Assembly: GCA_001189345.1 (NCBI GenBank)
Contig: LFKV01000015.1
Location: forward strand, 62,001 to 126,000
Reading direction: 5' to 3'
Source of the DNA: Candidatus Paraburkholderia kirkii
GTDB lineage: Bacteria > Pseudomonadota > Gammaproteobacteria > Burkholderiales > Burkholderiaceae
Length of the DNA stretch: 64,000 bases
A program made the translations under genes and the position numbers. Below, one piece after another: positions 1-64,000 of this stretch. Each line of letters starts with the position of its first letter. Position 1 is the stretch's first letter. The notes under the pieces are model-generated. The model made no database searches, was not told where the DNA came from, and saw only the letters and a list, made by a program, of their open reading frames with translations.

Positions 1-908
1 CGCCGGGCAGCGCGAAAGTGGTCCATGCCGATGTACACGTAGCCCGCCTCGCTCATGCGCGTGATCACGCGCTCGAGAATGGCGAGGCGCACGGTGGATG
101 AGGGCAGCGCGCTTTCGTCGATCTGCCGCTGCATCTTGAAGAGCGTGGGCATGTGCGCATAGCCGAACACGGAGACGCGGTCCGGCGCGAGGTCGATGAT
201 CGCGTCGAGCGTGCGCGTGAAGCTCTCGACGCTCTGATGCGGCAGGCCGTAAGATCAGATCGACGCTCACCGACTTGAATTGAAGCCGTGCCTGCACGCG
301 GCGTCGAGCACGGTCTTGGTCATCGCGCGCGGCTGGATGGCGGTTGACCGCGCGCTGCACGCGCTCGTCGAAGTCCTGCACGCCGAGGCTCAGACGGTTG
401 AAGCCGAGCTCGCGCAGCAAGGCGATGGTTTCCGCCGATGCCTCGCGCGGATCGACTTCGATCGAGTCGAGTATTCCGCGCGCTCGTCGGGAACGAGCTC
501 GAAGTGCTCGCGGGTCGCGGACATCAGCTCGCTCATCTCGGCGTGCGAGAGGAAGGTCGGCGTGCCGCCGCCCCAGTGCAGTTGCGTGACGGGACGCGCC
601 GTGTCGAAGAGCGCGGCCTGCATCGCCAGTTCGCGCTTCATGCAGTCGAGGTACGGACGCGCGTGCGCGCGATTCTTCGTCGCGACCTTGTTGCAGCCGC
701 AGTAGAAGCAGACGGTGTCGCAGAACGGGATGTGGAAGTAGAGCGAGAGATCGGCCGTGGCGCCGCCGTTGCGCGCCGCCGCGCGATAATGCGCGGGGTC
801 GAACGAATCGGTGAACTGGACGGCGGTCGGATAGGACGTGTAGCGCGGGCCGTGCGCATCGTAGCGCGCGAGCAGGTCGGGACGGAAGAGCGGGGCGGCG
901 GGTGTCAT
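1..908 (-). pseudogene. hemN: Oxygen-independent coproporphyrinogen III oxidase, frameshifted and cut by the window edge
   Basis: HemN is a radical-SAM enzyme that decarboxylates coproporphyrinogen III in anaerobic haem synthesis. The ATG at 906-908 opens a protein with the CX3CX2C iron-sulfur motif (CDTVCFYC, Cys63/67/70) and HWGGGTP, both typical of the family. The reading frame is then broken several times: a perfect 5-bp tandem duplication at 462-471, one extra base near 341-343, a second 5-bp duplication at 275-284, one extra base near 251 and another near 17. Between lesions the protein is clearly HemN (RLSLGVQDFDERVQRAVNR, then SVESFTRTLDAIIDLAPDRV). The insertions at 251-471 sum to 12 bases, so the frame recovers but the protein is scrambled. 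The 3' end lies outside the window. Identity is certain. Whether the lesions are biological or technical is an inference. Confidence 0.88.
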
Positions 909-1063
909 GGCGGGCCTCTGGGGATCAGCCGAGTCTAGTGCGACATGGCGCGCCCGCGTTGCGCGATAAGGTCGCAGCCCGCCCGCTGCGATTTGACGAA
1001 GCGCAAAGGCGAGGCGTGGGACAATGCGAATTTGGTCTGTTGCTTCCGCCATTCAGTACCGTC

Positions 1064-1357
1064 ATGCCGATCGATTCTTCGCCTCATGCCTGCCGCGAGG
1101 GCTGTGGCGCGTGCTGCATCGCGCCTTCCATCTCGAGCCCGATTCCCGGGATGCCGGATGGAAAGCGCGCGGGCGAGCGCTGCGTGCAGCTGGGCGACGA
1201 TTGGCGCTGCAGGATTTTTGGCGATCCGCGGCGGCCTGCCTGTTGCAGCGGCCTGCAGCCCTCCGACGAGATGTGCGGCGAGACGCGCGAGCATGCGCTG
1301 GTGTGGATCGAGCGGCTGGAGGTCGAGACGCAGCCGCGCGCGGCGCAACTGTCATGA
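1064..1357 (+). CDS. YkgJ-family cysteine-cluster protein
   Basis: This small protein of 97 residues begins [18 protein letters not shown] and carries eight cysteines, including the paired motif GCGACC near the N-terminus. That is the signature of the YkgJ/UPF0153 putative zinc- or iron-chelating family, whose biochemical role is not established. The ATG at 1064 was chosen because homology begins there; the same frame is open upstream, but that part has no family character. It lies divergently from hemN and 72 bp before the DUF1439 gene. The frame is intact. Function beyond metal binding cannot be inferred. Confidence 0.75.
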
Positions 1358-2091: not shown

Positions 2092-2915
2092 ATGGACTGG
2101 ATATTGATGTTTAAGGCGCTCATTCTGGGCCATCGTCGAGGGGTTGACCGAATTTCTGCCGGTCTCGAGCACGGGGCATCTGATCGTCGCAGGCAGCCTT
2201 TTGAACTTCACCGACGCGCAATCGAAAACATTCGACGTCGTCATTCAGTTCGGCGCGATTCTCGCCATCTGCTGGGAATACCGCGCCAGGATCGGCTCGG
2301 TGGTCGCCGGACTGCCGGCGCGCGCCGATGCGCGGCGCTTCACGCTGAACGTGATTATCGCGACGATTCCGGCCATCGTGCTCGGCCTGCTGTTCGAAAA
2401 AAACATCAATGGCGTGCTGTTCTCGCCGGTGCCGGTGGCGCTGATCGTCGGCGGCATCGTGATTCTCTGGGCGGAGTCGCGCCAGCGCGATCGCGGCGCG
2501 GCGCGTGCAATCCGTCGACGACCTGTCCTACTCGGATGCCTTCAAGGTCGGACTCGCGCAATGCTTCGCCCTGGTTCCCGGCACGTCGCGTTCCGGCGCG
2601 ACCATCATCGGCGGAATGATCTTCGGGCTCGAGCGGCGCGTCGCCACGGAGTTCTCCTTCTTCCTCGCCATTCTGATCATCTTCGGCGCGACGCTCTACG
2701 AAATGGCGAAGTACTGGCGCACGCTCACCGTACACGATCTGGGCCTCTTCGCGGTCGGGCTGGTGGCGGCGTTCGTGAGCGCCTTCGTCTGCGTGCGCTG
2801 GCTGCTGCGCTACGTCGCCTCGCACGATTTCACTGCGTTCTCGTGGTATCGCATCGGCTTCGGCTTGCTGATCCTGATCGTCGGATATAGCGGCGGGCTG
2901 AGCTGGACCGACTGA
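2092..2915 (+). pseudogene. uppP: Undecaprenyl-diphosphatase, two frameshifts
   Basis: UppP (BacA) is the integral-membrane phosphatase that recycles undecaprenyl diphosphate during cell-wall synthesis. The start [13 protein letters not shown] at 2092, the motif [12 protein letters not shown], and [13 protein letters not shown] near the C-terminal half are diagnostic of the family. The frame is lost twice: one extra C in a CC run near 2131 and one extra base in the GC-rich run near 2485-2510. Both are +1 changes, and the full length is otherwise preserved to the stop at 2915. The gene would need two corrections to make protein. Redundant phosphatases of the PAP2 type exist in related genomes, so loss need not be lethal. 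Frameshifted identity is clear; whether it is expressed is unknown. Confidence 0.9.
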
Positions 2916-6275: not shown

Positions 6276-7245
6276 ATGTCTTCACTGCCCGCCCCGACCT
6301 TCGATGACGTCGCCGATGCCGCCCGGCGCATCAAAGGCGTTGCACACTGCACGCCCGTCCTCACGTCCCGCACCGCCGACGAAATCGCCGGCGCGTCGCT
6401 CTTCTTCAAGTGCGAGAACTTTCAGCGCATGGGCGCGTGCATGGGCGCGTTCAAGTTCCGCGGCGCCTACAACGCGATTTCCCACTTCGACGATCGCCAG
6501 CGCGCGGCGGGCGTCATCACGTACTCGTCGGGCAATCACGCGCAGGCGATCGCGCTGTCCGCGAAGCTCGCCGGCATCCGCGCGACCATCATGCCCGAGG
6601 ACGCGCTCGCCGCGAAGGTGCCGCGACGCGAGGCTATGGCGGCGAAGTGATCACCTACGACCGCTACACGCAGAACCGCGAGGAAATCGGCCGCGCGCTC
6701 GCCGAGGAGCGCTGCATGACGCTGATTCCGCCTTACGACCATCCGCATGTGATCGCGGGGCAGGGGACGGCGGCGAAGGAACTGATCGAGGAAACCGGCC
6801 CGCTCGATTATCTCTTCGTGTGCCTGGGCGGCGGGCTCATCGGCGACTGCGCGCTCGCGGCGGCCGCGCTGTCGCCGGACTGCAAGGTGGTCGGCGTCGA
6901 GCCGGAAGCGGGCAACGACGCGCAGCAGTCGCTCGCGCGCGGCGAGATCGTGCATATCGAGGTGCCGCGCACCATCGCCGACGGCGCGGCGTCCACGCAT
7001 GTCGGCGAATACAACTTCCCAATCACCAGCGTCACGTGGACCGGATCGTCGCCGTGAGCGATGCGCAGCTCATCGAGACGCTGCGCTTTTTCGCGCAGCG
7101 CATGAAAATGGTGGTCGAGCCGACCGGCTGCCTCGCGGCGGCGGCGGTGCTGCAGAAAGTCGTGCCGGTCGAGGGCAAGCGCGTCGGCGTGATCGTGTCC
7201 GGCGGCAACGTCGATCTGGCGAAGCTGGCTCAGTTCGTCGCGTGA
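6276..7245 (+). pseudogene. Threonine/serine dehydratase (fold-type II PLP enzyme), frameshifted
   Basis: The start MSSLPAPTFDDVADAARRIKG, SGNHAQAIALSAKLAG, and the C-terminal KMVVEPTGCLAAAAVLQ identify a PLP-dependent threonine/serine or hydroxyaspartate ammonia-lyase. Damage is heavy. A perfect 12-bp tandem duplication (6427-6450) inserts four residues directly before the PLP lysine motif AFKFRGA. One base is missing near 6630 and another near 7035, each moving the frame. The glycine-rich phosphate loop reads CLGGGLIGD, where the family usually has four glycines, so three bases also seem lost there. The enzyme would normally deaminate hydroxy-amino acids to keto acids. It converges on lysE. 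No functional product is expected. Confidence 0.85.
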
Positions 7246-7924: not shown

Positions 7925-8146
7925 TTATTGTTGATGAGGGTGGAGGGTGAAGCGCACGTCGAGGCGGCCGGTCGGCACGCCCATCGTGTTGCGTACGACC
8001 GGGTGACGGAAGGCCGCGAGCGCGTCGCGCTGCTCTTGCGTGCCGACCCCGAGCAGATCGAGCACATGAACGACCACCGCGTTGAGCACCGACGTGTTGC
8101 CGTCCTCGATCTTCACCGCGATGCCGAGCGCGCCTTGCTCGCGCCG
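7925..8146 (-). pseudogene. Remnant: C-terminal end of L-asparaginase II
   Basis: About 73 codons in frame with the 3' part of ubiD read [17 protein letters not shown] and end [19 protein letters not shown]. This is not UbiD. The G-LGIAVKIxDG motif and the closing PVVRNTMG segment resemble the C-terminus of asparaginase II proteins (Pfam PF06089 type). The rest of that gene is gone. Assignment is from remembered family features, so moderately sure. Confidence 0.55.
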
Positions 8147-9418
8147 CACGCCGAACATCACGCGCTTCGCGTGGCCCGGGTAGCTCTTCTTCATCTGCAC
8201 GATCGCCATGCGATAGCTGCAGGCTTCGGGCGGCAGATAGAAGTCGGTGATCTCGGTGAACTGCTTCTGCAGAAGCGGCACGAATACCTCGTTCAGCGCG
8301 ACGCCCAGCACGGCGGGTTCGTCGGGCGGTTTGCCCGTGTAGGTGGAATGGAAGAGGGCGTCGCGGCGCATCGTGATCTTCTCGACCGTGAAGACCGGAA
8401 GCCACTCCTGCTCGTTGTAATAGCCGGTGTGATCGCCGTACGGCCCTTCGAGCGCGTGCTCGTATTTCGCGGCGGCGGAGTTCGACGGGCGCGGCGGCGC
8501 GCCTTCGGGCGCGGGCGGCACGCTGCCCTCCTGCGGATGAATAAAGCCCTCGAGCACGATCTCCGCGCGCGCCGGCACCTGCAGCGTATCGACGCCCGGC
8601 ATCAGGCATCGGGCGAGCTCGGTGCGCGGGCCGCGTAGCAGTCCGGCGAACTGGTATTCCGAGAGCGAATCCGGCACCGGCATCACCGCGCCGAGGATGG
8701 TCGCGGGATCCGCGCCGAGCACGACCGCCACCGGATACGGCTTGCCCGGATTGGCGAGCGCGAACTCGCGGAAATCGAGCGCGCCGCTGCGATGCACGAG
8801 CCAGCGCATGATGAGCTTGTTGCGCCCGATGAGCTGCGCCGGTAGATGCCGAGATTCTGGCGCGGCTTGTTCGGTCCGCGCGTGACTGTGAGACCCCAGG
8901 TGAGGAGCGGTCCGGCGTCGCCCGGCCAGCACGTCTGGATCGGCAGCCGATGGAGATCGACGTCCTCGCCTTCCCAGACGACTTCCTGGCAAGACGGCGC
9001 GCTCACCGACTTCGGCGCCATGTCCCAACATCGCCTTGGCGAGCGAGAGCAGCTTGCCCGCGTCCTTCAGGCCTTTGGGCGGCTCGGGCTCCTTGAGGGC
9101 GGACAGCAAGCCGGCCGACGTCGCGCAGCGAACCCAGCGCGGCGACGTCGCTGCCGAGACTGACATCGGCGCCGCTCTGCGCCTCCGTTTCGATGCCCAT
9201 GCCGAGCGCGACGCGCCGCGTCGTGCCGAACAGGTTCGCGAGCACGGGCATCGTGTGGCCGGTGGGCGCCTCGAAGAGCAGCGCCGGTCCGCCCGCGCGC
9301 AAGACGCGATCGGAGACTTCGGTGATTTCGAGAACGGGGGAGACGGGCTGTCGATGCGGCGCAATTCACCGAGCGCTTCGAGGCGGGCGGTGAAGTCGCG
9401 CAGGTCTTTGTATTTCAT
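7925..9418 (-). pseudogene. ubiD: UbiD decarboxylase with four frameshifts, fused by deletion to the C-terminus of an asparaginase
   Basis: UbiD removes the carboxyl group from 3-polyprenyl-4-hydroxybenzoate in ubiquinone synthesis, using prenylated FMN. The start [23 protein letters not shown] at 9418 and the segments [33 protein letters not shown] and [19 protein letters not shown] are plainly UbiD. Four frameshifts occur: one base missing near 9345, one extra near 9105, one extra near 9025, one missing near 8845. After HAKRVMFGV (about 8146) the normal UbiD sequence WSFLRQFMYTKF is absent. Instead the frame continues into [13 protein letters not shown] and [18 protein letters not shown], which resembles the end of L-asparaginase II. 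A deletion of the last third of ubiD and most of the next gene is the simplest cause. Confidence 0.85.
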
Positions 9419-9625
9419 CGATGGTCGGGTTTGGACTCGAAGGCGCCCGAAGCGCACGGTGCGAGGGGCGGGACAGCTGCGCGCCACGCGATTGTCGATT
9501 TTACCTGCGTCCGCGTCCGTGCGTTCGGTGACATTCAGCAAAATCCGCTGGGAATCGCCCGTGAGACTTTCCGGGCGCTGAACACTGTTCAATATAACTG
9601 TAAGTAATTGAAAAAATCTATAGCA
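9419..9625. other. Divergent intergenic region
   Basis: The sequence between ubiD and the transglycosylase leader becomes AT-richer toward 9580-9660 and contains no credible gene. It must hold the ubiD promoter on the reverse strand, which I cannot place with confidence. Confidence 0.5.
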
Positions 9626-9653
9626 TTGAAACCTCATTAAACCCTGTTAGAAT
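9626..9653 (+). promoter_or_regulatory. Sigma-70-like promoter of the transglycosylase leader
   Basis: TTGAAA and TAGAAT are separated by 16 bases in an AT-rich island, the strongest promoter-like pair upstream of the transglycosylase gene. Transcription would begin near 9660, about 340 bases before the start codon. Confidence 0.55.
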
Positions 9654-11234: not shown

Positions 11235-12425
11235 TCATCTGCTGAACAATGTGCCGAGCCGCCGAACCGCTTTCTCCAGTTTCGAGTGGGCCGTCGCGTA
11301 GGACAGGCGGATATACCGCTCCGGTGCATGAAATCCGAAATCCGCGCCCGGCACGAGCACGACACCTGCGTCGTGGAGCATCGAATGCGTGAGCGCGTCG
11401 CTGTTGCCGGCCGCGGGATGATGAACCGAGGCTGTATCGGCGTAGACGTAGAACGCGCCGTCCGGCACCACCGGCGCGCCGAAGCCGAGCGAGCGCAGCG
11501 CCGGCACGATGTAATCGCGCCGCTGCTTGAATTCGAGCCGGCGCGCTTCGTAGATCGCGAGCGTTTCGGGCTCGAAGCAGGCGAGCGCGGCGTGCTGCGC
11601 GAGCGCCGACGCGCAGATGAACAGATTCTGCGAGAGCTTCTCGACTGCGCTCACCATCGCGTGCGGCACCACGAGCCAACCGAGCCGCCAGCCGGTCATG
11701 TTGAAGTATTTCGAGAAGCTGTTCACCGTGACGACGTCGTCGCCGTAGGAGAGGGCGGAGACAGGCTGCGCGTCGTAGCTCAAGCCCTGATAGGTTTCGT
11801 CGACGATCGTGGAGCCGCCGCGCGCGCGAACCGTCTCGACGATGCGCCGCAACTCGTCCGGCTCGATCGACGTGCCCGTCGGATTCGACGGCGACGCGAG
11901 CAGCACGCCGCGCGTCTTACCGGTCTAGTTTTCCTCGACGTGCCCGACGGTCAGCTGAAAGCGCTCGGCGGGGCCGCTCGCGATCAGCACCTGCTTGCCG
12001 TCCGCCGACACGAAATGCCGGTTGCACGGATAGCACGGATCGGGCATCAGGACTTCGTCGCCGTTGTCGACGAGCGCCATGCAGGCGAGCAGCAGCGCCG
12101 CCGATGCGCCCGCCGTCACGACGATGCGCTCCGGATCGACCGCAAGGCCGAACACATCGCGATAGTGCCGTGCGATCGCCTCGCGCAGCGCGTGGATGCC
12201 GAGCGCGTTGGTGTACTGCGTGACGCCGCGCTTCAATGCATCGGCGGCGGCGCGGGTCACCGGCTCCGGCGCGGTGAAGTCCGGCTCGCCGATGCTCATG
12301 TGAATGATGTCGCGGCCCGCGCGTTCCAGCGCCTGCGCCTGCTTCATCAGTTCCATCACGTAGAAGGGCTCGATCGCATCGACCCGCGAGGCGAGCCGGA
12401 CGAGCGGTTCCGCAGCGCGGTTCAT
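11235..12425 (-). pseudogene. Class I/II PLP aminotransferase, single internal stop
   Basis: The product has MSIGEPDFTAPEPV, YTNALGIHALREAIARHY, SPSNPTGTSIEPDEL and the PLP-lysine motif NSFSKYFNMTGWRLGW, so it belongs to the AspC/AlaT-like fold-type I aminotransferases. One codon, TAG at 11925-11927 (HVEEN-stop-TGKTRGVLLASPSNP), interrupts an otherwise clean 396-codon frame. The family usually has tryptophan there, so TGG to TAG is the likely change. The N-terminal 166 residues alone lack the PLP lysine and would be inactive. It follows nusB closely, the usual gene order in this group. Substrate cannot be told from sequence. Confidence 0.9.
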
Positions 12426-12863
12426 TTACGCTCCGCGCCCGCGCGCCTGCGCCTCGGCGGGACGCATCACGACGGCGAGCTTGTCGAGCACGCCGTTCAC
12501 GTATTTGTAGCCGTCCGAGCCGCCGAAGGTTTTCGTCAGTTCGACCGCTTCGTTGATGACCACGCGATACGGCACGTCGATGTGATGCTTGAACTCGAAC
12601 GCGGCGACCAGCAGCACCGCCCGCTCGACCGGCGACAACCGCTCGATCGGGCGGTCGAGGCACGGCTGCAACTGCGCGGACAGCGCATCGGATTCCTTGA
12701 TCACGCCGTGCAGGATTGCATCGAGGTGCGCCTGATTGGCCTTGTCGAAGCCTTGCGCAGAACGCAATTGCGCGTCGATCTCGCCAGCGGGCGCGCCTGA
12801 CAGCAGCCATTGATACAGCCCTTGCGTCGCGAGTTCGCGCGAACGGCGTCGTGCGCTCTTCAT
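12426..12863 (-). CDS. nusB: Transcription antitermination protein NusB
   Basis: NusB joins NusE (ribosomal S10) on boxA RNA and promotes antitermination of rRNA operons. The 145-residue product begins [23 protein letters not shown] and contains [22 protein letters not shown] and [32 protein letters not shown], all hallmark segments. It is the usual length for the family. Its start overlaps the ribH stop by four bases, so the two are translationally coupled. The frame is intact. Confidence 0.97.
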
Positions 12864-13354
12864 GCGCGGTCCTCGTCTTCTTCATCGCCGTCAAGCTGCT
12901 CAAGCGCGACGGACAGATTCGCCATCTCGACCGCCACGCGCGCGGCGTCGCGGCCCTTCTCGGTCATGCGGGCAACGGCCTGCTCGTCGTTTTCGGTCGT
13001 CAGCACGGCGTTGGCTACCGGAATGCCGAAGTCGAGCGCGATGCGCGAGATGCCCGAGCCGCTTTCGTTCGAAACCAGCTCGAAGTGGTACGTCTCGCCG
13101 CGCACGACCGCGCCGAGCGCGATCAGAGCGTCGAACTGGCCGGATTCCGCGAGTTTGTGCAGCGCGAGCGGGATTTCGAGCGCGCCCGGCACGGTGACGA
13201 GCAGCACGTCCTGGCCGATCACGCCGAGGCGCTCCAGCTTCTCGATGCAGGCGTCGGCGAGGCCGTTGCACACCGGTTCGTTGAAGCGCGACTGCACGAT
13301 GCCGATGCGCAAGCCGTCACCGTCGAGGTTTGGCTGGTATTGTCCGATTTCCAT
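12860..13354 (-). CDS. ribH: 6,7-dimethyl-8-ribityllumazine synthase
   Basis: RibH condenses the RibA/RibD-derived pyrimidine with 3,4-dihydroxy-2-butanone 4-phosphate to give lumazine, the direct riboflavin precursor. The 164-residue product shows [59 protein letters not shown] and [13 protein letters not shown], the substrate-binding segments. It has the acidic C-terminal tail ([11 protein letters not shown]) common in this genus. It lies 54 bases downstream of ribBA and overlaps nusB. Intact. Confidence 0.97.
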
Positions 13355-13408
13355 GAATGAGGTCCTTGGATTGGAATTGTCCGGAATTGGGTTGAGCGGC
13401 CGGCGGTC

Positions 13409-14572: not shown

Positions 14573-14792
14573 GATGACGTCCCGTTCGGGGCCCGGTTTG
14601 GGGAAAGCGCGTATTTTACGCCACGGTCGATGGACAGTCGCTGAAATCGCCGCGCTTTGCTCCGTGGCGTTTTCCTAAGCCATTCGGACGAATGGCGGAC
14701 GAGCCGCGCGCCTAAGAGACTACGGTCATCTCAACTTTCAGTGGCGCGAATTCTGTACAATGTTCAGTACGTTAAATCGTATGGGACCGGCC
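14573..14792. other. Divergent spacer between ribBA and the toxin-antitoxin remnant
   Basis: No gene and no FMN riboswitch is visible here. Just before the antitoxin start, GTAC half-sites flank ATGTTCA-like sequence (about 14755-14771), which may be a toxin-antitoxin autoregulatory operator, but the symmetry is poor. Confidence 0.4.
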
Positions 14793-15548: not shown

Positions 15549-15553
15549 ACGCG

Positions 15554-16168: not shown

Positions 16169-16197
16169 CTCGTGCCTTTCTCCAGGTCCAGGGGCAG

Positions 16198-48892: not shown

Positions 48893-49363
48893 TTACAGGT
48901 GGGAAGCGGCCGAGCGGCGGGCCAGGACGGCGAGCTGGCGGAAGGTGCCAGCGTCGACGGAATCGGCCGGGACGAGCAGCGTTTCACGCCGCCCGCGCGC
49001 GCAGACGAGCGTCAGCGCGAGCAGCCGGCCGCTCCATTGCGCGCATCCCGCGATGCGCGTGCGCCGCACGTCGCCGCTGCGGCTCCAGAGCGTAAGGCCG
49101 TCCGACTTGCAGGCCGATGGCCGCCGGCTGGGCCCGCAGCCACCCCGATACGACGCAAGCCCGAACGCAGCCATGGTCGCCGCGCACGCCACCGCCGCGT
49201 GCCCGACCTGTTCCGTGTGCGCGTAGGCGCACTGGAACACCGAGGCGCCGGCCACGCTCGCGAATCCGAGCATCGCGCCCCGCAAGAAACGCGACGGCCG
49301 CATCGCAACACCCGGCGTCGAGCCGGTTTCCCGATGCGGCCGATCCACGCACACGCCCGCCAT
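48893..49363 (-). CDS. YgfX-like hypothetical protein with a probable compensated frameshift
   Basis: The frame ends DGLTLWSRSGDVRRTRIAG, then LLALTLVCARGRRETLLVPADSVDAGTFRQLAVL, which resembles the soluble half of YgfX/CptA-type inner-membrane proteins. Upstream are two hydrophobic stretches around ASVAGASVFQCAYAHTEQVGHAAVACAATM. Between them, GCGPSRRPSACK looks out of place, while the adjacent frame reads RAQPAAIGLQVG. Two opposite indels near 49140 and 49100 would explain this, altering only about twelve residues. The start may be 49363 or 49303 (MRPSRFLRG). Located between rpoE and fabF as in relatives. Function unclear. Confidence 0.6.
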   Translation of the reverse strand: MAGVCVDRPHRETGSTPGVAMRPSRFLRGAMLGFASVAGASVFQCAYAHTEQVGHAAVACAATMAAFGLASYRGGCGPSRRPSACKSDGLTLWSRSGDVRRTRIAGCAQWSGRLLALTLVCARGRRETLLVPADSVDAGTFRQLAVLARRSAASHL

Positions 49364-49393
49364 GTCGATTCCGTACTGACGAGCGCGCCGTGC

Positions 49394-50632
49394 TCAGTGG
49401 CGCTTGAAAACGAGCGAGCCGTTCGTGCCGCCGAAGCCGAACGAGTTCTTCACCGCCACGTCGATCTTCATTTCCCGCGCCGTGTTCGCGCAGTAATCCA
49501 GGTCGCACTGCGGGTCCTGGTTGAAGACGTTGATGGTCGGCGGCGAGATCTGGTGGTGAATCGCCAGCACCATGAACACCGACTCCAGGCCGCCCGCGCC
49601 GCCCAGCAGGTGGCCGGTCATCGACTTGGTGGAGTTCACGACAACGTTCTTCGCCTGATCGCCGAGCGCGCGCTTGATGCCGATCGTCTCCGCGATGTCG
49701 CCGAGCGGCGTGGACGTGCCGTGCGCGTTCACGTAATTTACCTGGTCGGCGTTGATCTGCGCGTTCTTCATGGCATTGACCATCGCGCGGCGGCCGCCAT
49801 CGCCGTCTTCGGGCGGTGCCGTCATGTGGAAGGCGTCACCGCTCATGCCGTAGCCGAGCACTTCCGCGTAGATCTTCGCGCCGCGCTTCTTCGCGTGCTC
49901 GTACTCCTCGAGCACCATCACGCCCGCGCCTTCGCCGAGCACGAAGCCGTCACGGTCGGTGTCCCACGGACGGCTCGCCGTGGCAGGATCGTCGTTGCGC
50001 TGCGACAGCGCGTGCGCCGCCGCGAAGCCGCCGATGCCGAGCGGAGAAACCGTCGCTTCCGCGCCGCCCGCGACCATCACGTCCGCGTCGCCGTATTCGA
50101 TCAGGCGCGACGCCTCGCCGATGCAGTGCAGGCCGGTCGTGCAGGCCGTGACCATCGACAGATTCGGCCCCTTGAGACCGAAGCGGATCGACAGATGGCC
50201 GGAGATCATGTTGATGATCGACGCCGGCACGAAGAACGGAGAGATGCGGCGCGGACCGCGGTTCAGCAGTTCGGTCTGGGTGATTTCGATCATCGGCAGG
50301 CCGCCGATGCCCGAACCGACCACAACGCCCACGCGCTCCGCGTTGTCCTCGGTGATCTCGAGGCCGCTGTCCTTCATGGCCTGGACGCCCGCGGCGAAGC
50401 CGTAATGGATGAAGGTATCCATATGGCGCGCTTCCTTGGCGGGCATGTACTCCTCGATGTTGAAGCCCTTCACTTCGCCCGCGAAACGCGTGGAGAAGTT
50501 CGTGGCGTCGAACTTCGTGATATTCGCGATGCCCGATTTGCCCGCGATCAGATTGGCCCAGCCGTCGGCAACGGTATTGCCGACAGGCGAAACGAGTCCC
50601 AGGCCTGTAACAACAACTCGACGACGGCTCAC
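49394..50632 (-). CDS. fabF: 3-oxoacyl-[acyl-carrier-protein] synthase II
   Basis: FabF elongates acyl-ACP by condensation with malonyl-ACP. The 412-residue product has the active-site cysteine ([14 protein letters not shown], Cys164), the first histidine in [11 protein letters not shown], the second in [13 protein letters not shown], and [14 protein letters not shown] at the C-terminus. It starts [19 protein letters not shown] at 50632. It is last in the plsX-fab cluster and separated from acpP by a terminator-like hairpin. Intact. Confidence 0.97.
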
Positions 50633-50655
50633 GGTAACCCCTTATCCATAGAATG

Positions 50656-50710
50656 ACGAAAAACAAAAGCCACAGCGGCCACAGGAAACCGCCCTGTGTG
50701 CCCTGTGGCT
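50656..50710 (-). terminator. Attenuating terminator between acpP and fabF
   Basis: On the reverse strand AGCCACAG and CTGTGGCT form the base of a long stem with an inner CACAGG/CCTGTG helix, followed by TTTTGTTTTTCG. It would end much of the acpP transcript before fabF, allowing acyl carrier protein to be made in excess. Confidence 0.78.
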
Positions 50711-50778
50711 CTCAAACTGGTCTTTGCAGCGACGATGCATCAAGCTGGTTGAGCGATGAGTCGCCGGCGCGCCCGGCC

Positions 50779-51018
50779 TCAGGCCTTGACGTTTGCGCGA
50801 GCGTAGTCGATCGCTTGCTGAACCGTGGTGATCTTTTCGGCCTCTTCATCGGGAATTTCCATGCCGAATTCGTCTTCGAGCGCCATCACGAGTTCGACGG
50901 TATCGAGCGAGTCAGCGCCCAGATCGTTCAAGAACGAAGCTTCGTTCTTGATTTCGGCTTCCGCCACGCCCAGTTGTTCGGTGACGATCTTCTTCACGCG
51001 CTGTTCGATGTTGTCCAT
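50779..51018 (-). CDS. acpP: Acyl carrier protein
   Basis: AcpP carries growing acyl chains on a phosphopantetheine arm attached by AcpS. The 79-residue product begins [18 protein letters not shown] and has the attachment motif [18 protein letters not shown] with the modified serine at position 37. It is acidic and helical, as expected. ATG 51018 is the family start. Intact. Confidence 0.98.
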
Positions 51019-51256
51019 ACAGCCCTCCGAGGGAAAAAAGTTCAAATATGCGAGTGCGCGCATTTTATCAGGTTTGGACCCGCAAAATACGGCGCGTTGG
51101 TTCCATGCTCCGCCGTCCGGCGCGCTCCATCAAGAGGGCGCCGGCGCTTCGCGATGATTCCTCGCCGCCGCGCGGAATCGGTGCGCACGATGCCGTATCG
51201 AGCATTTTGCGCGCCCGTCCGGCGCGGATATTAAGCGAAAATCGGCGAAATGCCTA

Positions 51257-51997
51257 TTACATGTACATGCCGCCGTTCACGTGCAGCGTCGTGCCGGTGA
51301 TGTAGCCGGCGAATGGCGATGCCAGGAACGCCACAGCATGCGCGATATCTTCGGGACTGCCCAGTCGGCCAAGTGGGATAGACGCGGTAAGCGCGGTGCG
51401 CTGCTCTTCGGGCAGCACCTTGGTCATGTCCGTGTCGATGAAACCCGGCGCGATGCAGTTCACCGTGATGCCGCGGCTGCCGATCTCGCGCGCGAGCGCG
51501 CGCGTCATGCCCGCGACGCCCGCCTTCGCCGCCGCGTAGTTCGCCTGTCCGGGATTGCCCGAAGAGCCGACCACCGAGGTGATGTTGATGATGCGCCCAC
51601 CGCGCGCCTTCATCATCGGCCGCAGGACGGCGCGCGACAGGCGGAATACCGCGCGCAGGTTGGTGTCGATGACGGCGTCGAACTCGTCGTCCTTCATGCG
51701 CATCGCGAGCTGGTCCTTCGTGATGCCCGCGTTGTTCACGAGAATGTTCAGGCTGCCGAACTCCTTGACGGTGGCATCGATGAACGCGTCGGCCGCGGCC
51801 GCGTCGTTCACGTTCAGGACCGCGCCACGGCCCTTGCCGCCTGCCTGCTCCAGCGCTTCCGTGATGCCGGCCGCGCCGCTTTCGCTGGTCGCCGTGCCGA
51901 TGACGGTCGCGTCTTGCTTCGCGAGTTCGAGCGCGATCGCCCTGCCGATGCCGCGCGACGCACCCGTGACGATTGCTACTTGGTTGTCCAGATTCAT
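51257..51997 (-). CDS. fabG: 3-oxoacyl-[acyl-carrier-protein] reductase
   Basis: FabG reduces 3-oxoacyl-ACP with NADPH. The 246-residue short-chain dehydrogenase has the dinucleotide loop TGASRGIGRA, NNAGITKD, and the triad Ser141, Tyr154 and Lys158 (YAAAK). It ends with the characteristic TLHVNGGMYM. It lies ten bases after fabD. The 238-base gap to acpP (51019-51256) holds no gene and probably the acpP promoter. Intact. Confidence 0.98.
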   Translation of the reverse strand: MNLDNQVAIVTGASRGIGRAIALELAKQDATVIGTATSESGAAGITEALEQAGGKGRGAVLNVNDAAAADAFIDATVKEFGSLNILVNNAGITKDQLAMRMKDDEFDAVIDTNLRAVFRLSRAVLRPMMKARGGRIINITSVVGSSGNPGQANYAAAKAGVAGMTRALAREIGSRGITVNCIAPGFIDTDMTKVLPEEQRTALTASIPLGRLGSPEDIAHAVAFLASPFAGYITGTTLHVNGGMYM

Positions 51998-52007
51998 TTT
52001 GTTTTCC

Positions 52008-52940
52008 TCAGCCTGCGATCATTTTGCGCGTTTCCTCGAGCGACGCCGGATCGAAGATCGCGCCGCCGACGAGATTGCCGTCGATGCGCTTCGTGAAGCC
52101 CGCGAGCACCTTGCCCGAACCGCACTCGATGACGTGCGTGACGCCGTCGTTCGCCATCGCCCGCACGCACTCGACCCAGCGCACCGGACCCGCCGCCTGA
52201 CGCACCAGTGCGTCCTTGATCGCGGCCGGATCGGAGACGATCGCGACGTCGATGTTATTAATCAGGGGAATTCGCGGCGCCTCGATCTCGACACGGCCGA
52301 GATAGTCGCGCAGCTGATCCGACGCCGGCCTGAGCAGCGACGAATGGAACGGCGCGGAAACCGGCAGCGGCAGCGCGCGCTTCGCGCCCTTCACCTTCGC
52401 CACTTCGCACGCCTTCTCGACGGCCGCCCTGGCGCCGGCAATCACCGCTTGCGCGGGCGCATTGAAGTTGACCGCTTCGACGACGCCCGCCGACGACGCT
52501 TCGGCGCAAACCGCGCGCACCGTGTCGTCGTCGAGGCCGAGGATCGCGGCCATGCCGCCTTCGCCCACCGGCACGGCGCTTTGCATCGCCTGCGCGCGGA
52601 AGCGCACGAGCGGCACAGCGTCCGAAAAGGCGAGCGCGCCCGCCGCGACGAGCGCAGTGTATTCGCCGAGGCTGTGACCGGCGACGATGGCGGGCGCGAG
52701 GCCGGTTTCCTTTTCCCACACGCGGTAGATCGCGTACGCCGCCATCAGCATGACGGGCTGCGTGTTCGTCGTCAGGTTCAGGTCTTCGGCCGGACCTTCG
52801 GCGATCAGCTTGCCGAGATCCTGGCCGAGCGCCTCGGAAGCCTGCTGAACGGTTTCGCGCACGATGGCGTGATCGGCGAATGCGTTGAGCATGCCGATCG
52901 ACTGCGAGCCCTGTCCGGGGAAAACGAACGCAAATTTCAT
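52008..52940 (-). CDS. fabD: Malonyl-CoA:ACP transacylase
   Basis: FabD loads malonyl groups from CoA onto AcpP. The 310-residue product starts MKFAFVFPGQGSQSIGML and has the nucleophile elbow VAGHSLGEYTALVAAG (Ser90) and the active-site histidine in VSAPFHSSLLRPA. The start 52940 is set by homology; the frame extends upstream without meaning. Intact. Confidence 0.97.
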   Translation of the reverse strand: MKFAFVFPGQGSQSIGMLNAFADHAIVRETVQQASEALGQDLGKLIAEGPAEDLNLTTNTQPVMLMAAYAIYRVWEKETGLAPAIVAGHSLGEYTALVAAGALAFSDAVPLVRFRAQAMQSAVPVGEGGMAAILGLDDDTVRAVCAEASSAGVVEAVNFNAPAQAVIAGARAAVEKACEVAKVKGAKRALPLPVSAPFHSSLLRPASDQLRDYLGRVEIEAPRIPLINNIDVAIVSDPAAIKDALVRQAAGPVRWVECVRAMANDGVTHVIECGSGKVLAGFTKRIDGNLVGGAIFDPASLEETRKMIAG

Positions 52941-53070
52941 ATCGTCCTCGATGATTGGAATGATCCGCGACGTCGTCGGTGACTGCGCGCGCATCGCGCG
53001 CTCATGCGGCGCGCGGCGAATATCGTGACGACGGGATCAGTTGCGAATGGATAGAGGGATCGATTGGCGA

Positions 53071-54060
53071 TTAATAGCGGATGACCGACGCGCCCCACGT
53101 GAAGCCACCGCCGACACCTTCGATCAGCACGTTGTCGCCGCGCTTGACGCGCCCGTCGCGGACCGCGACGTCGAGCGCGAGCGGAATCGACGCCGCCGAC
53201 GTGTTGCCGTGCTCGCCGACCGTCACGACCATGCGCTCGGGCGGCAGATGCAGCTTGCGGCACGTGCTCTGCATGATGCGGATGTTGGCCTGATGGGGGA
53301 TCAGCCAGTCGATGTCTTCCGGCGCGAGCTTCGCCTTGTCGAGCGCTTCGACCGCGACCTTTTCCAGCACGTTGACCGCGAGCTTGAACACGGCCTGACC
53401 GTCCATGTACAGGAACGCGCTGCCTTCGACCACGCCGCCGTTCACGTTGCCCGGCGTGCAGAGGATGCCCGAATGGCTGCCGTCCGCGTGCAGCGCGCTC
53501 GAAAGCACGCCCGGCTCATCGGACGCCTGCAGGACGACCGCGCCCGCGCCGTCGCCGAACAGCACGCAGGTGGTGCGGTCTTTGAAATCGAGGATGCGCG
53601 AGAACGTTTCCGCGCCGACGACGAGCGCCGTACGGTTCAAGCCGCTGCGGATGAAACTGTCCACCGTGGCGACGCCGTAGGCGAAGCCGGAGCATACCGC
53701 TTGCAGGTCGAACGCCGCGCCACCGTTCCGGATGCCGAGCTTGTTCTGCAGCAGGCACGCGGTGCTGGGGAAAACGAAGTCCGGCGTGGAGGTCGCGACG
53801 ATGATCAGATCGATCGATTGAGGATCGACGCCCGCCGCCTCGATCGCCTTCTGCGATGCGATGAGGGCGAGGTCGCTCGTGGTTTGACCGGGAGCCGCAA
53901 AGTGGCGCGCGTGAATGCCGGTGCGCGCGACGATCCATTCGTCGCTCGTCTCGACGCCCTGCTTCGCGAGACGGTCTGCCAATTCCTGATTCGTGACGCG
54001 CTCGGCCGGCAGATAGCTGCCGGTGCCCAGCACGCGAGAGTAAAGATTGGTTTGAGCCAT
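53071..54060 (-). CDS. fabH: 3-oxoacyl-[acyl-carrier-protein] synthase III
   Basis: FabH starts each fatty acid by condensing acetyl-CoA with malonyl-ACP. The 329-residue product has the cysteine in [15 protein letters not shown] (Cys123), the histidine in [10 protein letters not shown] and the asparagine in [15 protein letters not shown]. Its ATG overlaps the plsX TAA by one base, so the two are translated together. Intact. Confidence 0.97.
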
Positions 54061-55241
54061 TATGCCTTCGAATGTAGCGCAGTCCCGGACTCGTCCGGCG
54101 GGTTCGGCTGCGAGTTTGGCTGAGAATCAGGCTGCGGGTTCGATTGACCGGCTGCAGCGGCGCCAGGCGTGCTTTTGCCATTGGCTGCAACCGATGCATC
54201 GGACGCCGGAGCATGCGCATCGGCCTCGCGCGCGGAGGGCGCATTTTCTTCCATCGCGCGCACCAGGCGTTCCAGCACGCCATTTTTGACGGCATCATAC
54301 CCGCGTTTAATAGCCCACTCAAACCCGAAGGCCTCGGCCGAGCCGTGGCTCTTGATGACGAGTCCGCGCAGCCCCAGCAACGCCGCGCCGTTATATTGCG
54401 CGGGATCGACGCGCTTCTTGAAACGCTTGAGCACGGGCAGCGCGATGAGCGCCATCAGCTTGGAGGCGAACGAGCGGCTGAACTCTTCCTTGATCATGTC
54501 GGCGAGCATCTTGGCGAGACCTTCGGAGGTCTTCAGCGCGACATTGCCGACGAAGCCATCGCACACGACGACGTCCGTCGTGCCCTTGTAGATGTCGTTG
54601 CCTTCCACGTTGCCGTAGAAGTTGAGCGTGCTCGCGCGCAAGAGCTCACCCGCGCGCTTGATCGTTTCGTTGCCCTTGATGACTTCTTCGCCGATGTTGA
54701 GCAGGCCGATCGAGGGCCGCGAGCGGCCCTCGATCGCCGACACCAGCGCGTGGCCCATCTCGGCGAACTGCAGCAGATGCTCGGGCTCGCAATCGACATT
54801 GGCGCCGAGATCGAGCACGGTGGTGTAGCTCTTCTGGCTCGGCATAGCGAAGGCGATGGCCGGACGCTCGATGCCGGAAAGTGTCTTCAGCACATAGCGC
54901 GACACCGCCATGAGCGCGCCGGTGTTGCCGGCGGAAATGCAGGTCTGCGCCTCGCCGTCCTTCACGAGGTTGAGCGCGACGCGCATCGACGAGTCTTTCT
55001 TCTTGCGCAGCGCGACCTCGACCGGGTCGTCCATCGCGACGACTTCGCTCGCCGGAACGACGGTGAGGCGAGGCTCGTCGAGGGCCTTCGACTTCTTGAG
55101 CTGGGCGCGGATAGGCTGCTCAAGACCGACGAGCATCAGGTGTGCGTCGGGATGCGAGCGCACGAAATTGACGGCAGCGGGAACGGTCACGACCGGACCG
55201 TGGTCGCCTCCCATGCAGTCGATGGTGATCTTTACAGTCAT
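54060..55241 (-). CDS. plsX: Phosphate acyltransferase PlsX
   Basis: PlsX converts acyl-ACP to acyl-phosphate for phospholipid synthesis. The 393-residue product begins [20 protein letters not shown] and has [42 protein letters not shown] and [21 protein letters not shown]. The C-terminal ~45 residues (serine/asparagine/proline repeats such as [17 protein letters not shown]) are a low-complexity extension. It lies between rpmF and fabH. Intact. Confidence 0.97.
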
Positions 55242-56607: not shown

Positions 56608-57222
56608 ATGTCCGAGGCTCCAAACACGCGACCACCCGCGCGACCACTCGCGCCACCCCGCACGCCGCGCCTGATCCTGGCGTCCAGTTCACCGTATCGG
56701 CGCGAGTTGCTCAAACGCCTGCGCGTACCTTTCGACGTCGTCAAGCCCGACGTCGACGAGGCGCCGCTCGCCGGCGAGGCACCCGAGTCGACGGCCGTGC
56801 GCGTCGCGGACCGCGCGGATGTGCTCGTGATCGGATCCGACCAGGTCGCGACTTTCGACGGCCGGCAGATCGGCAAGCCAGGCACGCACGAGAACGCCGT
56901 CGCGCAGCTTCGGGCGATGCGCGGCCGCAGCGTCGAATTTCACAGCGCGCTGTGCCTGTTCGACAGCCGCACGGAGAACGTGCAATCCGCCGATATCGTC
57001 ACCCGGGTGCGGTTTCGCCACTATTCGGACGCGCAGATCGAGGCCTATCTGCACGCCGAAACGCCCTACGACTGCGCGGGCAACGCGAAATCCGAAGGTC
57101 TGGGCATCGCGCTGCTGGAGGCGATCGAATCCGACGATCCCACGGCACTCATCGGGCTGCCGCTCATCGCGCTGAGCGGCATGCTCGAGACGGTCGGATT
57201 CCCGGTCCTGGGGGCGGCATGA
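56608..57222 (+). CDS. Maf/YceF-family nucleotide pyrophosphatase with an internal deletion
   Basis: Maf proteins hydrolyse non-canonical nucleoside triphosphates; the YceF type prefers 7-methyl-GTP. The product has [56 protein letters not shown] and [14 protein letters not shown], all as in YceF. Between ESTAVRVA and DRADVL about eleven residues including the usual R-L-x-x-x-K-A segment are missing, with the frame preserved. That lysine contributes to the active site, so activity is doubtful. It begins with a 17-residue proline-rich leader. Its stop overlaps the next ATG. Confidence 0.78.
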
Positions 57223-57937
57223 GCGGCGTGCTCTATCTGTCCCGAACACGCTGGGCGATGGCGACGCAGCCGCGCTCGCCGGCGTCCTGCCCGAACCGGT
57301 ACGCGCGCAGGCGGCCGCGCTCGCCTACTACATCGGCGAAAACGCGAAAACCACGCGCGCCTTTCTGAAAAAAGTGGGTACGGAACGGCCGATTCAGGAA
57401 ATCGAGGTGCGCGAGCTGAACGTCAACACGCCCCCGGGCGAGATCGACAAGCTGCTCGCGCCGATTCTGGCGGGCACGGACGCCGGTCTCGTGTCCGAGG
57501 CAGGCTGCCCCGCCGTCGCCGATCCGGGCGCGCTGCTGATGCGGCGCGCGCATCAGCGCGGAGTGAAAGTGGTGCCGTTCGTCGGCCCGAGCTCGATCCT
57601 GCTGGCGCTGATGGCCTCGGGCATGAACGGCCAGAGCTTTGCGTTCAACGGCTATCTGCCCGTCGATGCCGCCGAGCGCGGCAAGCGCCTGCGCGAACTG
57701 GAACAACTGTCGCGCAAGGCCAATCAAACGCAGATTTTCATCGAGACGCCCTATCGCAACAAGGCGATGCTCGACACGCTCGTCGCGACGTGCGCGCTGT
57801 CCACACTGATCTGCGTCGCGGTCGATCTGACGCTGCCGGGCGAAACCATCGTCACGCGCACGACGGCGGACTGGAAGAAGCAGCCCGCGCCGGACCTGCA
57901 CAAGCGCCCGGCGATCTTCCTGCTGCTGGCGTCGTGA
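57219..57937 (+). pseudogene. RsmI-like SAM-dependent methyltransferase, one-base deletion near the start
   Basis: The ATG at 57219 overlaps the maf stop (ATGA). After MSGVLYL one A is missing near 57239, so the frame turns into arginine-rich noise. The correct frame is open from about 57240 and reads NTLGDGDAAALAGVLPEPVR, FLKKVGTERPIQEIEVREL, SEAGCPAVADPGALLMRRA, VPFVGPSSILLALMASG and FIETPYRNKAMLDTL. This is a tetrapyrrole-methylase fold enzyme of the RsmI/YraL superfamily, here probably the shorter paralogue found beside maf in Burkholderia. No alternative start would restore the N-terminal SAM site. Confidence 0.82.
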
Positions 57938-61037: not shown

Positions 61038-61826
61038 TTGCCAGCAGTCTGAAAAGACCGAAGCTTTGGATCAAGCAATGGCCGTGATTTGTCAGACTGT
61101 ACAGGTGCAAGCTATAAACCATCATTTTACTTGCGCCCAGGGTCGGTTGCTCACCCGGAAAATCGAGCGACGAGTTGCACGCACGGCGATATCACCGACA
61201 GGGACGGAGCCCACAGGCGCGTTCGGTCGAGTCGATCGCCGGTCGGTAACGGATTTTTGGTCAAAAAGAATTTTATCGGCGAGAAGCGACGGCGCCCGGC
61301 GAAAAGGCCGGCTGCCAGCCTGAATCGGTCCTGCCATCGAGCGGGAGAAAAAGGCAATCGACGCTCGCCGGTTTTGCGAACAACTCACGGCGAACATCGC
61401 GGCGGCGCCGGCGCGGCATGGCAGCAAGGAGGATGGGTCGAAGCATCGCGCCGGTTTGCGCGAGACCGCTCTTCCCCGCCGCCACCGTTGGGAGGAATCA
61501 GGCTCTGTTGCAAAGAGCGTGGATCGGTTCGGCGCGTCCATTCTGAGACGTGGAACCGTCGCGCCGCCGTTCATCCTCGCCACGCGCCGCGAGGCTCCCC
61601 GGCGTTTCGCCGTTGCTTCGCATGCGCCCCACGGCAAGACCGCCCCATCGGCGGCCGAAGCCTGCTTTCGGCAATTCTCCCGCCAGAAGTCCCGCTCCAG
61701 CGTGCTTTGTGACAACATACAAAAAGCGTGGCACGCTCACCTTCCCGCTTCGTGCGCGTGACGTTTTCCGTCACCGACGCCGATTCGCCTGACGAGGGAA
61801 AAGTGTAGCCGCTCTGGAGCCGTTTC
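61038..61826 (+). other. Long rne leader
   Basis: About 790 bases contain no recognisable protein. In E. coli the rne leader is structured and mediates autoregulation by RNase E; a similar role is plausible here. Several GC-rich stems can be drawn (for example around 61288-61316), but I could not define a conserved motif. A sequence GGCTCTGTTGCAAA at 61500-61513 resembles the end of IS6-family elements, without any matching partner. Confidence 0.5.
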
Positions 61827-64000
61827 ATGAAACGCATGCTGTTTAACGCGACGCAGCAAGAGGAATTGCGCGTCGCCATCGTCGATGGGCAGAAGCTCAT
61901 CAACATCGACATCGAAACCGCCGGGCGCGAACAGCGCAAAGGTAACATCTATAAGGGAGTCGTCACCCGCATCGAGCCCTCGCTCGAAGCCTGCTTCGTC
62001 AACTACGGCGAAGACCGCCACGGGTTTCTGCCGTTCAAGGAAGTCGCCCGCCAGTATTTCCGCGACGGCGTCGAGATGCGCTCCGCGCGCATTCAGGATG
62101 CACTCCGCGAGGGCCAGGAACTCATCGTCCAGGTCGAGAAGGAAGAGCGCGGCAACAAGGGCGCGGCCCTCACCACGTTCATCTCGCTCGCGGGACGCTA
62201 TCTCGTCCTGATGCCGAACAACCCGCGCGGCGGCGGCGTCTCACGCCGCATCGAGAGCGACGAGCGGCAGGAACTGCGCGAAACCATGGCGCAGCTCGAA
62301 CTGCCGGAAGGCATGAGCATCATCGCGCGCACGGCCGGCATCGGCCGCTCCGCCGAAGAGCTCCAGTGGGACCTGAACTACCTGATGCAGCTCTGGCGCG
62401 CGATCGAAGCCGCGTCGCAGAGCGGCGTCGCCGGCCAGCCGATGCTCATTTATCTCGAATCGAGCCTCGTCATCCGCGCGATCCGCGACTACTTCCAGCC
62501 GGACATCGGCGAAATCCTCATCGACACGACCGAAATCCATGATCAGGCGCGCGCCTTCATGGATATCGTGATGCCCGACAACCTCTCGAAGGTGAAGCGC
62601 TATCACGACGACGTGCCGCTCTTCTCGCGCTTCCAGATCGAGCACCAGATCGAAACCGCATACTCGCGCACGGTGCCGCTGCCCTCGGGCGGCGGGATCG
62701 TGATCGATCACACCGAGGCGCTCGTCGCCATCGACGTGAACTCGGCGCGCGCGACCAAGGGCGCGGACATCGAGGAAACCGCCACGCGCACCAATCTCGA
62801 AGCCGCAGACGAAGTCGCGCGCCAGCTTCGTCTGCGCGATCTGGGCGGCCTGATCGTGATCGACTTCATCGACATGGAGTCGGCCAAGAGCCAGCGCGAA
62901 GTCGAGCAGCGCCTGAAGGATGCGCTGAAGCACGACCGTGCGCGCGTACAAATGGGCAAGATTTCGCGCTTCGGCCTGATGGAATTGTCGCGCCAGCGTC
63001 TGCGTCCGGCGCTGTCGGAAGGCAGCCACGTGACCTGCCCGCGCTGCAACGGCACGGGCCATATCCGCGATACGGAATCGTCCGCGCTGCAAGTGCTGCG
63101 GATCATCCAGGAAGAAGCGATGAAGGAGAACACCGCGGCGATCCATTGCCAGGTGCCGGTCGAGGTGACCGCCTTCCTGCTGAACGAAAAGCGCTCGGAA
63201 ATCAACAAGATCGAGTCGCGCTTCAAGGTCAACGTCGTCCTGATTCCCAACAAGCATCTCGAGACGCCGCACTACAAGCTCGAGCGCCTGCGTCACGACG
63301 ATGCGCGCCTCGACGATCCGCGCGCCTCGTGGAAGATGGCCGTCGAAGCAGCGAGCGAGCTGGAGTCGGAGACCGGCTACAGCAAGCGCAGCGAGGAAGT
63401 AAAGCCGAAGCAGGAAGCGGCCGTGAAGGGCATCACGCCCGAGAAGCCGGCGCCCGTCGAGGCCGCGCCCGCGCCCGTGCCGGCGAGCGGTGGTCTCATC
63501 GCCTGGATCAAGAATCTGTTCGGCATTCAGCCGGAAGCCAAGCCCGCACCGGCCCCGGTCGAGACGCAACCGGCCGTGCGTCCGCAGCGTGAACGCAGCG
63601 AGCGCACCGGCGGCGGCGATCGCAACCGCAACCGCCGCGGTGCCGCCGCCGGACGCGAAGGCGCGGCAGCAGGTGCGGCGACGGGCGGCAACGGCGCAGG
63701 CCGACAAGGCGCGCGCCGCGAGGATCGCGAAGCGCGTGGCGGCCGTGAAGGACGTGAGCTGCGCGAAGTCCGTGAACCGCGCGAGGCCCGCGAGCCGCGT
63801 GAAGCCCGTGAGCCGCGCGAGCCCCGCGAACCGCGTGAAGCACGCGATCGCAACGCCGAGCGCGCCGCGCGTCCGGAAGCGGGCGAACGCCGCAAGCCGC
63901 AGCCGGAAGCGGCCGTCGAGGCGCTGACGCAGGGCGAAACGGTCGTATCGGAAGTCGTCGAAACGATGCAGGTCGGCACGGACGTCGCGCAGCAGCCGGG
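61827..64000 (+). CDS. rne: Ribonuclease E (5' part)
   Basis: RNase E initiates mRNA decay and matures rRNA and tRNA. The window holds the first 724 residues. MKRMLFNATQQEELRVAIVD opens the RNase H-like/S1 region (GNIYKGVVTRIEPSLEACFV). The catalytic aspartate lies in AIDVNSARATKG (Asp303), a second acidic motif is VIDFIDME, and the zinc-link cysteines in CPRCNGTGH are at 404 and 407, exactly as in E. coli. From about 510 the protein is the unstructured arm: a short hydrophobic segment GLIAWIKNLFGI (membrane anchor-like), then arginine/glutamate repeats (REPREAREPREAREP) that probably bind RNA. The frame is clean to the window edge. Confidence 0.97.
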   Translation, partial: MKRMLFNATQQEELRVAIVDGQKLINIDIETAGREQRKGNIYKGVVTRIEPSLEACFVNYGEDRHGFLPFKEVARQYFRDGVEMRSARIQDALREGQELIVQVEKEERGNKGAALTTFISLAGRYLVLMPNNPRGGGVSRRIESDERQELRETMAQLELPEGMSIIARTAGIGRSAEELQWDLNYLMQLWRAIEAASQSGVAGQPMLIYLESSLVIRAIRDYFQPDIGEILIDTTEIHDQARAFMDIVMPDNLSKVKRYHDDVPLFSRFQIEHQIETAYSRTVPLPSGGGIVIDHTEALVAIDVNSARATKGADIEETATRTNLEAADEVARQLRLRDLGGLIVIDFIDMESAKSQREVEQRLKDALKHDRARVQMGKISRFGLMELSRQRLRPALSEGSHVTCPRCNGTGHIRDTESSALQVLRIIQEEAMKENTAAIHCQVPVEVTAFLLNEKRSEINKIESRFKVNVVLIPNKHLETPHYKLERLRHDDARLDDPRASWKMAVEAASELESETGYSKRSEEVKPKQEAAVKGITPEKPAPVEAAPAPVPASGGLIAWIKNLFGIQPEAKPAPAPVETQPAVRPQRERSERTGGGDRNRNRRGAAAGREGAAAGAATGGNGAGRQGARREDREARGGREGRELREVREPREAREPREAREPREPREPREARDRNAERAARPEAGERRKPQPEAAVEALTQGETVVSEVVETMQVGTDVAQQP

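Follow-up and report, generated by a model that had tools for sequence, protein, structure and literature searches.

Results

Broken and Intact Genes of the Window

The DNA analyzed here (the window) is a stretch of 64,000 nucleotides, C15:62001-126000 of the genome assembly G000 (3,914,712 bases in 48 contigs, 97.3% complete), in which genes broken by frameshifts, nonsense codons and deletions lie among intact housekeeping genes. Reference genes were called in G001, a genus mate of 7.0 Mb, by codon-position bias and codon usage; a choice of reference genes by tblastn score was rejected, as it picked genes in the wrong frame. A gene was regarded as broken when its LIF, the largest fraction of its codons in one stop-free frame after alignment, was below 0.8. 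This cut-off was used because start codons placed too far upstream gave false early lesions (rseA, yceD), and it is blind to lesions near the 5′ end, such as that of the rsmI-like gene.

We found that 12 of the 57 window genes having a one-to-one partner in G001 were broken, namely hemN, uppP, a pyridoxal phosphate (PLP) dehydratase gene, a LysE-type exporter gene, ubiD, an aminotransferase gene, zwf, a porin gene, nagZ, a glutaredoxin-like gene, sppA and a Rieske-domain gene, all of which had been named as broken in the original prediction. The aminotransferase gene owes this to a nonsense codon, not to an indel. The count becomes 13/58 with the mostly deleted asparaginase II, and about 16 with the remnant of a toxin–antitoxin (TA) pair and the rsmI-like gene, suggesting that the prediction of roughly 20 broken genes among some 58 was correct as to the decay but too high in number. 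Two of its claims lie outside the strict count: only fragments survive of the TA pair, both frames of which are open in G017 (similar DNA occurs in G015, with no match in the G001, G012 and G003 stretches), and the rsmI-like gene shows a frameshift near its start in the alignment while keeping a LIF of 0.97. A third claim, that yceD is broken, is doubtful. This gene was left out because its 4-base deletion recurs in G015 and falls ahead of the YceD domain, whose first residue is number 81 of 206.

The long housekeeping frames (lepA, plsX, fabF, hemL, era, rnc and ribD) are open, as had been stated, and rne is open to the end of the window. The description of the spared genes as essential is loose, since lepA and rnc are dispensable in E. 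coli. The whole-length rne, followed past the window, contains no stop and has a LIF of 0.92. Its C-terminal part carries an in-frame deletion of 117 bases and four gaps that cancel out in pairs, and G012, G003 and G015 likewise have gaps in this part.

Control counts were made with 51 references picked from 59, eight being left out as short, spurious or edge genes. On this set, none of 51 genes was broken in either G017 or G012, two larger genus mates presumed to be free-living, as compared with 2/47 in G015, 10/46 in G003 and 11/50 in the window. Some of the eight references left out also had LIF values below 0.8. In the window these were one frame at 0.51 (0.54 in G012), another at 0.78 that was low nowhere else, an antisense frame that was likewise low in G017 and G012, and a frame of 84 codons, low in G017 too (0.62); rne fell below the cut-off where it meets the edge of the window or of a contig.

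Absence of Lesions from Core Genes

We examined whether the lesions avoid a core class of 55 genes, made up of a ribosomal/RNA-polymerase block of 41 genes (taken whole) and 14 window genes, rne not among them; the assignment rests on essentiality in E. coli and operon order and, for the fab cluster, on a Burkholderia paper (PMC9816413). In the window alone, 33 lesion clusters were found, and the 14 genes of this class carried none, as compared with 7.0 expected if lesions were uniform (P = 0.0004). For the wider set of sampled stretches including the window, the count excluded 206 of the 389 genes called in G001, 3 as duplicates and 203 because the stretches sampled gave no acceptable match, some of these being truncated at the end of a stretch; gene deletions are undercounted as a result. 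Of the 183 one-to-one genes that remained, 47 were broken, all outside the core (0/55 versus 47/128, Fisher P = 4e-9). Similarly, no lesion cluster lay in 41,931 bp of core genes, whereas 111 lay in 132,525 bp of other genes; 26.7 would be expected in the core (P about 3e-12). The ribosomal/RNA-polymerase block carried no lesion in its 30,204 bp, while 14 nearby genes carried 25 frameshifts and 5 stops.

Selection on the Branch and Base Composition

The counts of nonsynonymous/synonymous changes on the window branch were 57/134 for broken and 141/557 for intact genes, as compared with 30/185 and 86/557, respectively, on the G001 branch. The difference was significant both between broken and intact genes (P = 0.006) and between the window and G001 branches (P = 2e-6). 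Thus, the lineage shows an excess of amino-acid changes that is largest in the broken genes, as the predicted relaxation of selection would have it.

Base composition was compared with that of five relatives. The GC content at third codon positions (GC3) of the window was 0.865, against 0.832-0.860 in the relatives, and its overall GC content was 0.647; with its abundant repeats, the sequence does not resemble that of an ancient symbiont, AT-rich and poor in mobile elements. On the kirkii branch, changes from GC to AT were relatively fewer than on the sister's branch, the opposite of the usual trend in symbionts.

Insertion Sequences and Rearrangement

The window corresponds to two separate regions of G001: its first 35.7 kb match 0.84-0.87 Mb and its part from 36.5 to 64 kb matches 2.05-2.08 Mb, 1.2 Mb apart. 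The joint between these segments is a 690-base stretch consisting of an IS66-type transposase fragment of 620 bases and a second, 72-base repeat, which recurs at a joint in contig C23. A search with the fragment gave 29 matches in G000, almost all of them identical, whereas G001 and G003 had none and G012, G015 and G017 a single distant match apiece. Many shortened copies elsewhere have end points in common (419-620, 457-620), as might result from the spread of derivatives with internal deletions.

Repeats of 200 bases or more made up 10.7% of the G000 sample and 2.8% of the G001 sample, figures that include rRNA operons and tuf, the G000 sample holding by choice two rRNA contigs and the cyclitol contig. 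Both the fragment copies and the repeat share indicate an expansion of insertion sequences as found in eroded symbiont genomes.

Second Copies of Broken Genes

Three broken genes (zwf, uppP and ubiD) were checked for second copies in G000, and two of them had an intact paralog. For zwf, an intact copy with 53% identity lies on C12 and a third copy, on C17, is in pieces. The uppP gene has an intact paralog with 35% identity on C25, and its loss is reciprocal between genomes: the first copy is broken and the paralog kept in G000, whereas in G015 the first copy is intact and the paralog (C160) is in pieces. Since zwf and uppP have intact paralogs, redundancy accounts for part of which genes break; ubiD does not fit this explanation.

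Recurrent Loss of ubiD

UbiD is the prenyl-hydroxybenzoate decarboxylase of ubiquinone synthesis. In the window, a 1.1 kb deletion joins a scrambled ubiD in frame to the C-terminal end, some 65 residues, of asparaginase II; the gene is broken, as predicted, by scrambling and fusion, while a frame of 570 codons stays open without being cut by a stop. No second UbiD was found in the G000 genome, in which both UbiX and UbiA are intact. An Rfam match to the Burkholderia small RNA candidate Bp1_738 (124 bits) lies at window 9595-9796, where the ubiD frame has its 5′ end.

We found ubiD to be broken in 6 of 58 genus genomes (G000, G003, G032, G038, G042 and G061). All six belong to a symbiont-like group of 11 genomes, consisting of 8 assigned to published symbionts and 3 under 4.3 Mb (G060, G061 and G066). 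The difference between this group (6/11) and the others (0/47, full-length matches) gives P = 1e-5, with the group fixed after the result had been seen; five of the broken copies are among the 8 genomes assigned to published symbionts. Five of the 47 others show one stop in the matched ubiD range, of which G017 was checked (LIF 0.97) and G005, G007, G035 and G043 have open frames of 534-666 codons. Since the lesion sets differ among genomes and both G032 and G038 have close relatives with an intact ubiD, several of the losses must, as judged from these sequences, have been independent. G000 and G032 both lack one base at the same ubiD site, which looked like a shared lesion; because ubiD is intact in G034, the genome nearest to G032, we read the two deletions as having arisen independently. 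The LysE-type gene was sufficiently complete for assessment in 8 symbiont-like genomes and was broken in 6 of them (in a ninth, G015, it runs off the end of a contig), so that recurrence of loss alone does not set ubiD apart.

Cyclitol Genes

Two divergent dehydroquinate (DHQ)-synthase paralogs, with open frames of 404 and 406 codons, were found on contig C43 of G000. One such paralog each was found in G003 and G015, and none in the other 13 of the 16 genus genomes searched. The best solved-structure match of both G000 paralogs is 4p53, entitled 'Cyclase', which we take to be valiolone synthase; under this presumed enzyme name, the pair represents the C7-cyclitol genes of a leaf-nodule symbiont. 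In G000:C43:12001-52000, the valiolone-synthase-like genes stand beside glycosyltransferase-, aminotransferase- and HAD-like neighbors and several mobile-element copies. No close match to C43 was found among the plasmid records searched. A second aroB-like match (G000:C41:24275-24613) has an open frame of only 189 codons, as compared with 375 codons for the other aroB (C5).

Other Features of the Window

The features of the window are listed in Table 1. A tRNA-Asp call by ARAGORN at 37680-37772 was rejected, as it lies inside the acpS frame and has no Rfam match.

Table 1. Genes and other features along the 64,000-nucleotide window, with the state of each.
Feature	Position	Strand	Remarks
hemN (oxygen-independent coproporphyrinogen oxidase), several indels	1..908	-	LIF 0.32; 3′ end beyond window
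uppP, two frameshifts	2092..2915	+	LIF 0.51
PLP-dependent threo-3-hydroxyaspartate ammonia-lyase-like, two frameshifts	6276..7245	+	LIF 0.42
LysE/RhtC-type exporter, in-frame nonsense codon	7256..7921	-	LIF 0.57; match below the families' cut-offs
ubiD remnant fused to asparaginase II C-terminus	7925..9637	-	Open 570-codon frame, two out-of-frame segments
Aminotransferase, in-frame nonsense codon (no indel)	11235..12425	-	LIF 0.57, alignment
ribH, ribBA, intact	12860..14572	-	LIF 0.96 and 1.00, no frameshift or stop; named from gene order and sequence
Degraded Phd/YefM-type antitoxin and partner frame (no Pfam match)	14657..15550	.	Fragments
ribE, ribD, hemL, intact	15554..18611	-	LIF 0.99-1.00, no frameshift or stop
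zwf, three deletions (two frameshifting)	27873..29250	+	LIF 0.46
Porin, two nonsense codons	32596..33723	-	LIF 0.44; weak family match
IS66-type transposase fragment (620 bases) and 72-base repeat	35854..36543	+	Rearrangement joint
nagZ (label from the original prediction only), indels and nonsense codons	36388..37417	-	LIF 0.60-0.61; 3′ end at insertion-sequence joint
era, rnc, lepB, lepA, intact	39527..44495	-	LIF 0.97-1.00; lepB and lepA named from gene order
Glutaredoxin-like, frameshifts	44624..44883	-	LIF 0.58-0.60
rpoE, fabF, acpP, fabG, fabD, fabH, plsX, intact	48198..55241	-	LIF 1.00; all except rpoE named from gene order
Small gene of doubtful status between rpoE and fabF	48893-49348	-	Within the 48198..55241 block
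rsmI-like (label from the original prediction only), frameshift near start	57219..57937	+	Alignment; LIF 0.97
sppA (peptidase S49), three frameshifts and a nonsense codon	57941..58914	-	LIF 0.30
Rieske-domain gene, indels and nonsense codon	58964..59367	-	LIF 0.44
rne, open to window end	61827..63998	+	LIF 0.92 over whole length

Discussion

The data presented above indicate that the window is almost certainly DNA of Ca. Burkholderia (Caballeronia) kirkii UZHbot2, a bacterium that lives as an obligate symbiont in leaf nodules of Psychotria (PMC4896955), undergoing recent gene decay under weakened selection with its core genes spared. The suggestion of a leaf-nodule symbiont, made from the sequence before the source of the DNA was disclosed, was right, and that of relaxed selection in a host-restricted lineage is borne out by the sparing of the core, the lesions outside homopolymers and the branch excess of amino-acid changes. 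The obligate, uncultured and vertically transmitted life in leaf nodules is taken here from citations of the literature. According to PMC4896955, published leaf-nodule symbiont genomes span 2.4-6.2 Mb, and within their group the obligate leaf endosymbionts rank lowest in genome size; the independent kirkii assembly UZHbot1 has 305 contigs there. For this sister strain (4.01 Mb), a table in PMC4271702 gives 2069 in what appears to be the gene-count column. PMC8599487 describes massive genome erosion in kirkii and a plasmid with cyclitol genes, including a valiolone-synthase-type enzyme.

Nodule life and transmission bottlenecks would relax selection on genes of redundant function or without use in the nodule, and small indels, nonsense changes, deletions and recombination between insertion sequences could then become fixed in such genes. 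Core genes would stay clean because purifying selection removes lesions from them. The decay would be recent relative to the split from the larger-genomed relatives. In accordance with this, the decay looks recent, and the broken genes look to have been under selection for most of the branch, because pairwise dN/dS is no higher in them and the branch difference is not significant when G012 and G015 serve as outgroups.

These same two results also belong to several points that weigh against decay under relaxed selection, together with the basis of the core class and the composition of the repeat samples mentioned above. With G012 and G015 as outgroups, broken and intact genes did not differ significantly (39/127 versus 132/533, P = 0.33). 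The median ratio of pairwise dN/dS to that of the G017 control was 1.30 for broken and 1.45 for intact genes (P = 0.77). There is no drift toward AT in the window as compared with the five relatives. The overlap of its broken genes with those of G003 (P = 0.13) and G015 (P = 0.38) was not significant, and all lesions were scored on the assembled sequence alone.

One alternative is that the lesions are real but partly adaptive, the loss of particular genes such as ubiD being favored in the nodule. The recurrence of broken ubiD among symbiont-like genomes, with different lesion sets and no case among the 47 others, would fit such an advantage. However, repeated loss is also expected of a merely dispensable gene, as the LysE-type gene illustrates, and the intact paralogs of zwf and uppP fit redundancy. 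We therefore regard an adaptive component as unlikely. As a tentative and rather doubtful proposal, leaf-nodule symbionts may repeatedly and independently discard UbiD, kirkii keeping UbiA and UbiX, and may either make ubiquinone by a UbiD-independent step or have little ubiquinone in the nodule. UbiD-independent decarboxylation, involving UbiN, is described for Rhodobacter capsulatus in PMC10626278. An open-literature search, whose scope left out the main kirkii genome papers, returned nothing on ubiD in these symbionts within the text portions it covered, and its one mention of kirkii with ubiquinone concerned NADH:ubiquinone oxidoreductase. Recurrent ubiD loss marks out one step in the synthesis of ubiquinone as possibly bypassed, or not needed, in nodules.

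A second alternative, that the draft genome owes most of its lesions to errors of sequencing or assembly, could draw on the pairwise dN/dS, which is not specially raised in the broken genes, and on the 39 single-base events among 83 isolated frameshifts. Random error, however, would not leave the core free of lesion clusters where 26.7 are expected, and the kinds of lesion also argue against it: only 1 of the 39 isolated 1-base indels falls within a homopolymer of at least 4 bases (3%, versus 2% expected), which indicates no homopolymer bias, and we counted 24 nonsense codons besides the deletion of 1.1 kb that produced the fusion and another of 72 bases. Moreover, the same genes are in part broken by different lesions in other symbiont-like genomes. 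Error is thus very improbable as a general explanation and holds at most for single lesions; the lesions are real, and error is rejected for their bulk by position, kind, branch selection and replication elsewhere. That these are ordinary strain-level pseudogenes of a free-living Caballeronia without a special lifestyle has a negligible chance of being correct: free-living bacteria do carry some pseudogenes and the GC content has not dropped, but neither of the two larger, presumably free-living genus mates has a broken gene on the control set, the genome is reduced for its genus (3.9 Mb, versus 5.5-10.1 Mb in 17 of the 18 other genus genomes compared), and the assembly is almost certainly that of a named obligate symbiont.

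Taken together, recent decay in a host-restricted lineage remains our interpretation, and the present analysis supplies numbers for an early stage of decay, with the lesions falling outside core genes. It also suggests that genuine genome erosion, and the lifestyle behind it, can be recognized from raw sequence alone.

The eroded genome of Candidatus Burkholderia kirkii was reportedly already described by Carlier and Eberl in 2012, and its erosion is a known phenomenon. The published genome (Carlier and Eberl 2012; Pinto-Carbo et al. 2016) is of the same species and almost certainly the same assembly, UZHbot2; what is added here is a test of the sparing of core genes, the judgment that the decay is recent and the survey of ubiD loss, with otherwise nothing different in principle. 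The other leaf-nodule symbionts (schumannianae, verschuerenii, brachyanthoides, crenata, humilis, calva and pumila) likewise have reduced genomes and broken genes, but they differ from kirkii in their lesions and partly in the genes affected. Early genome degeneration in recent insect symbionts is the subject of PMC3914690. Such symbionts are recently host-restricted and carry many young pseudogenes and mobile elements, and kirkii resembles them in this respect, although its host is a plant and the GC content of the window has not fallen.

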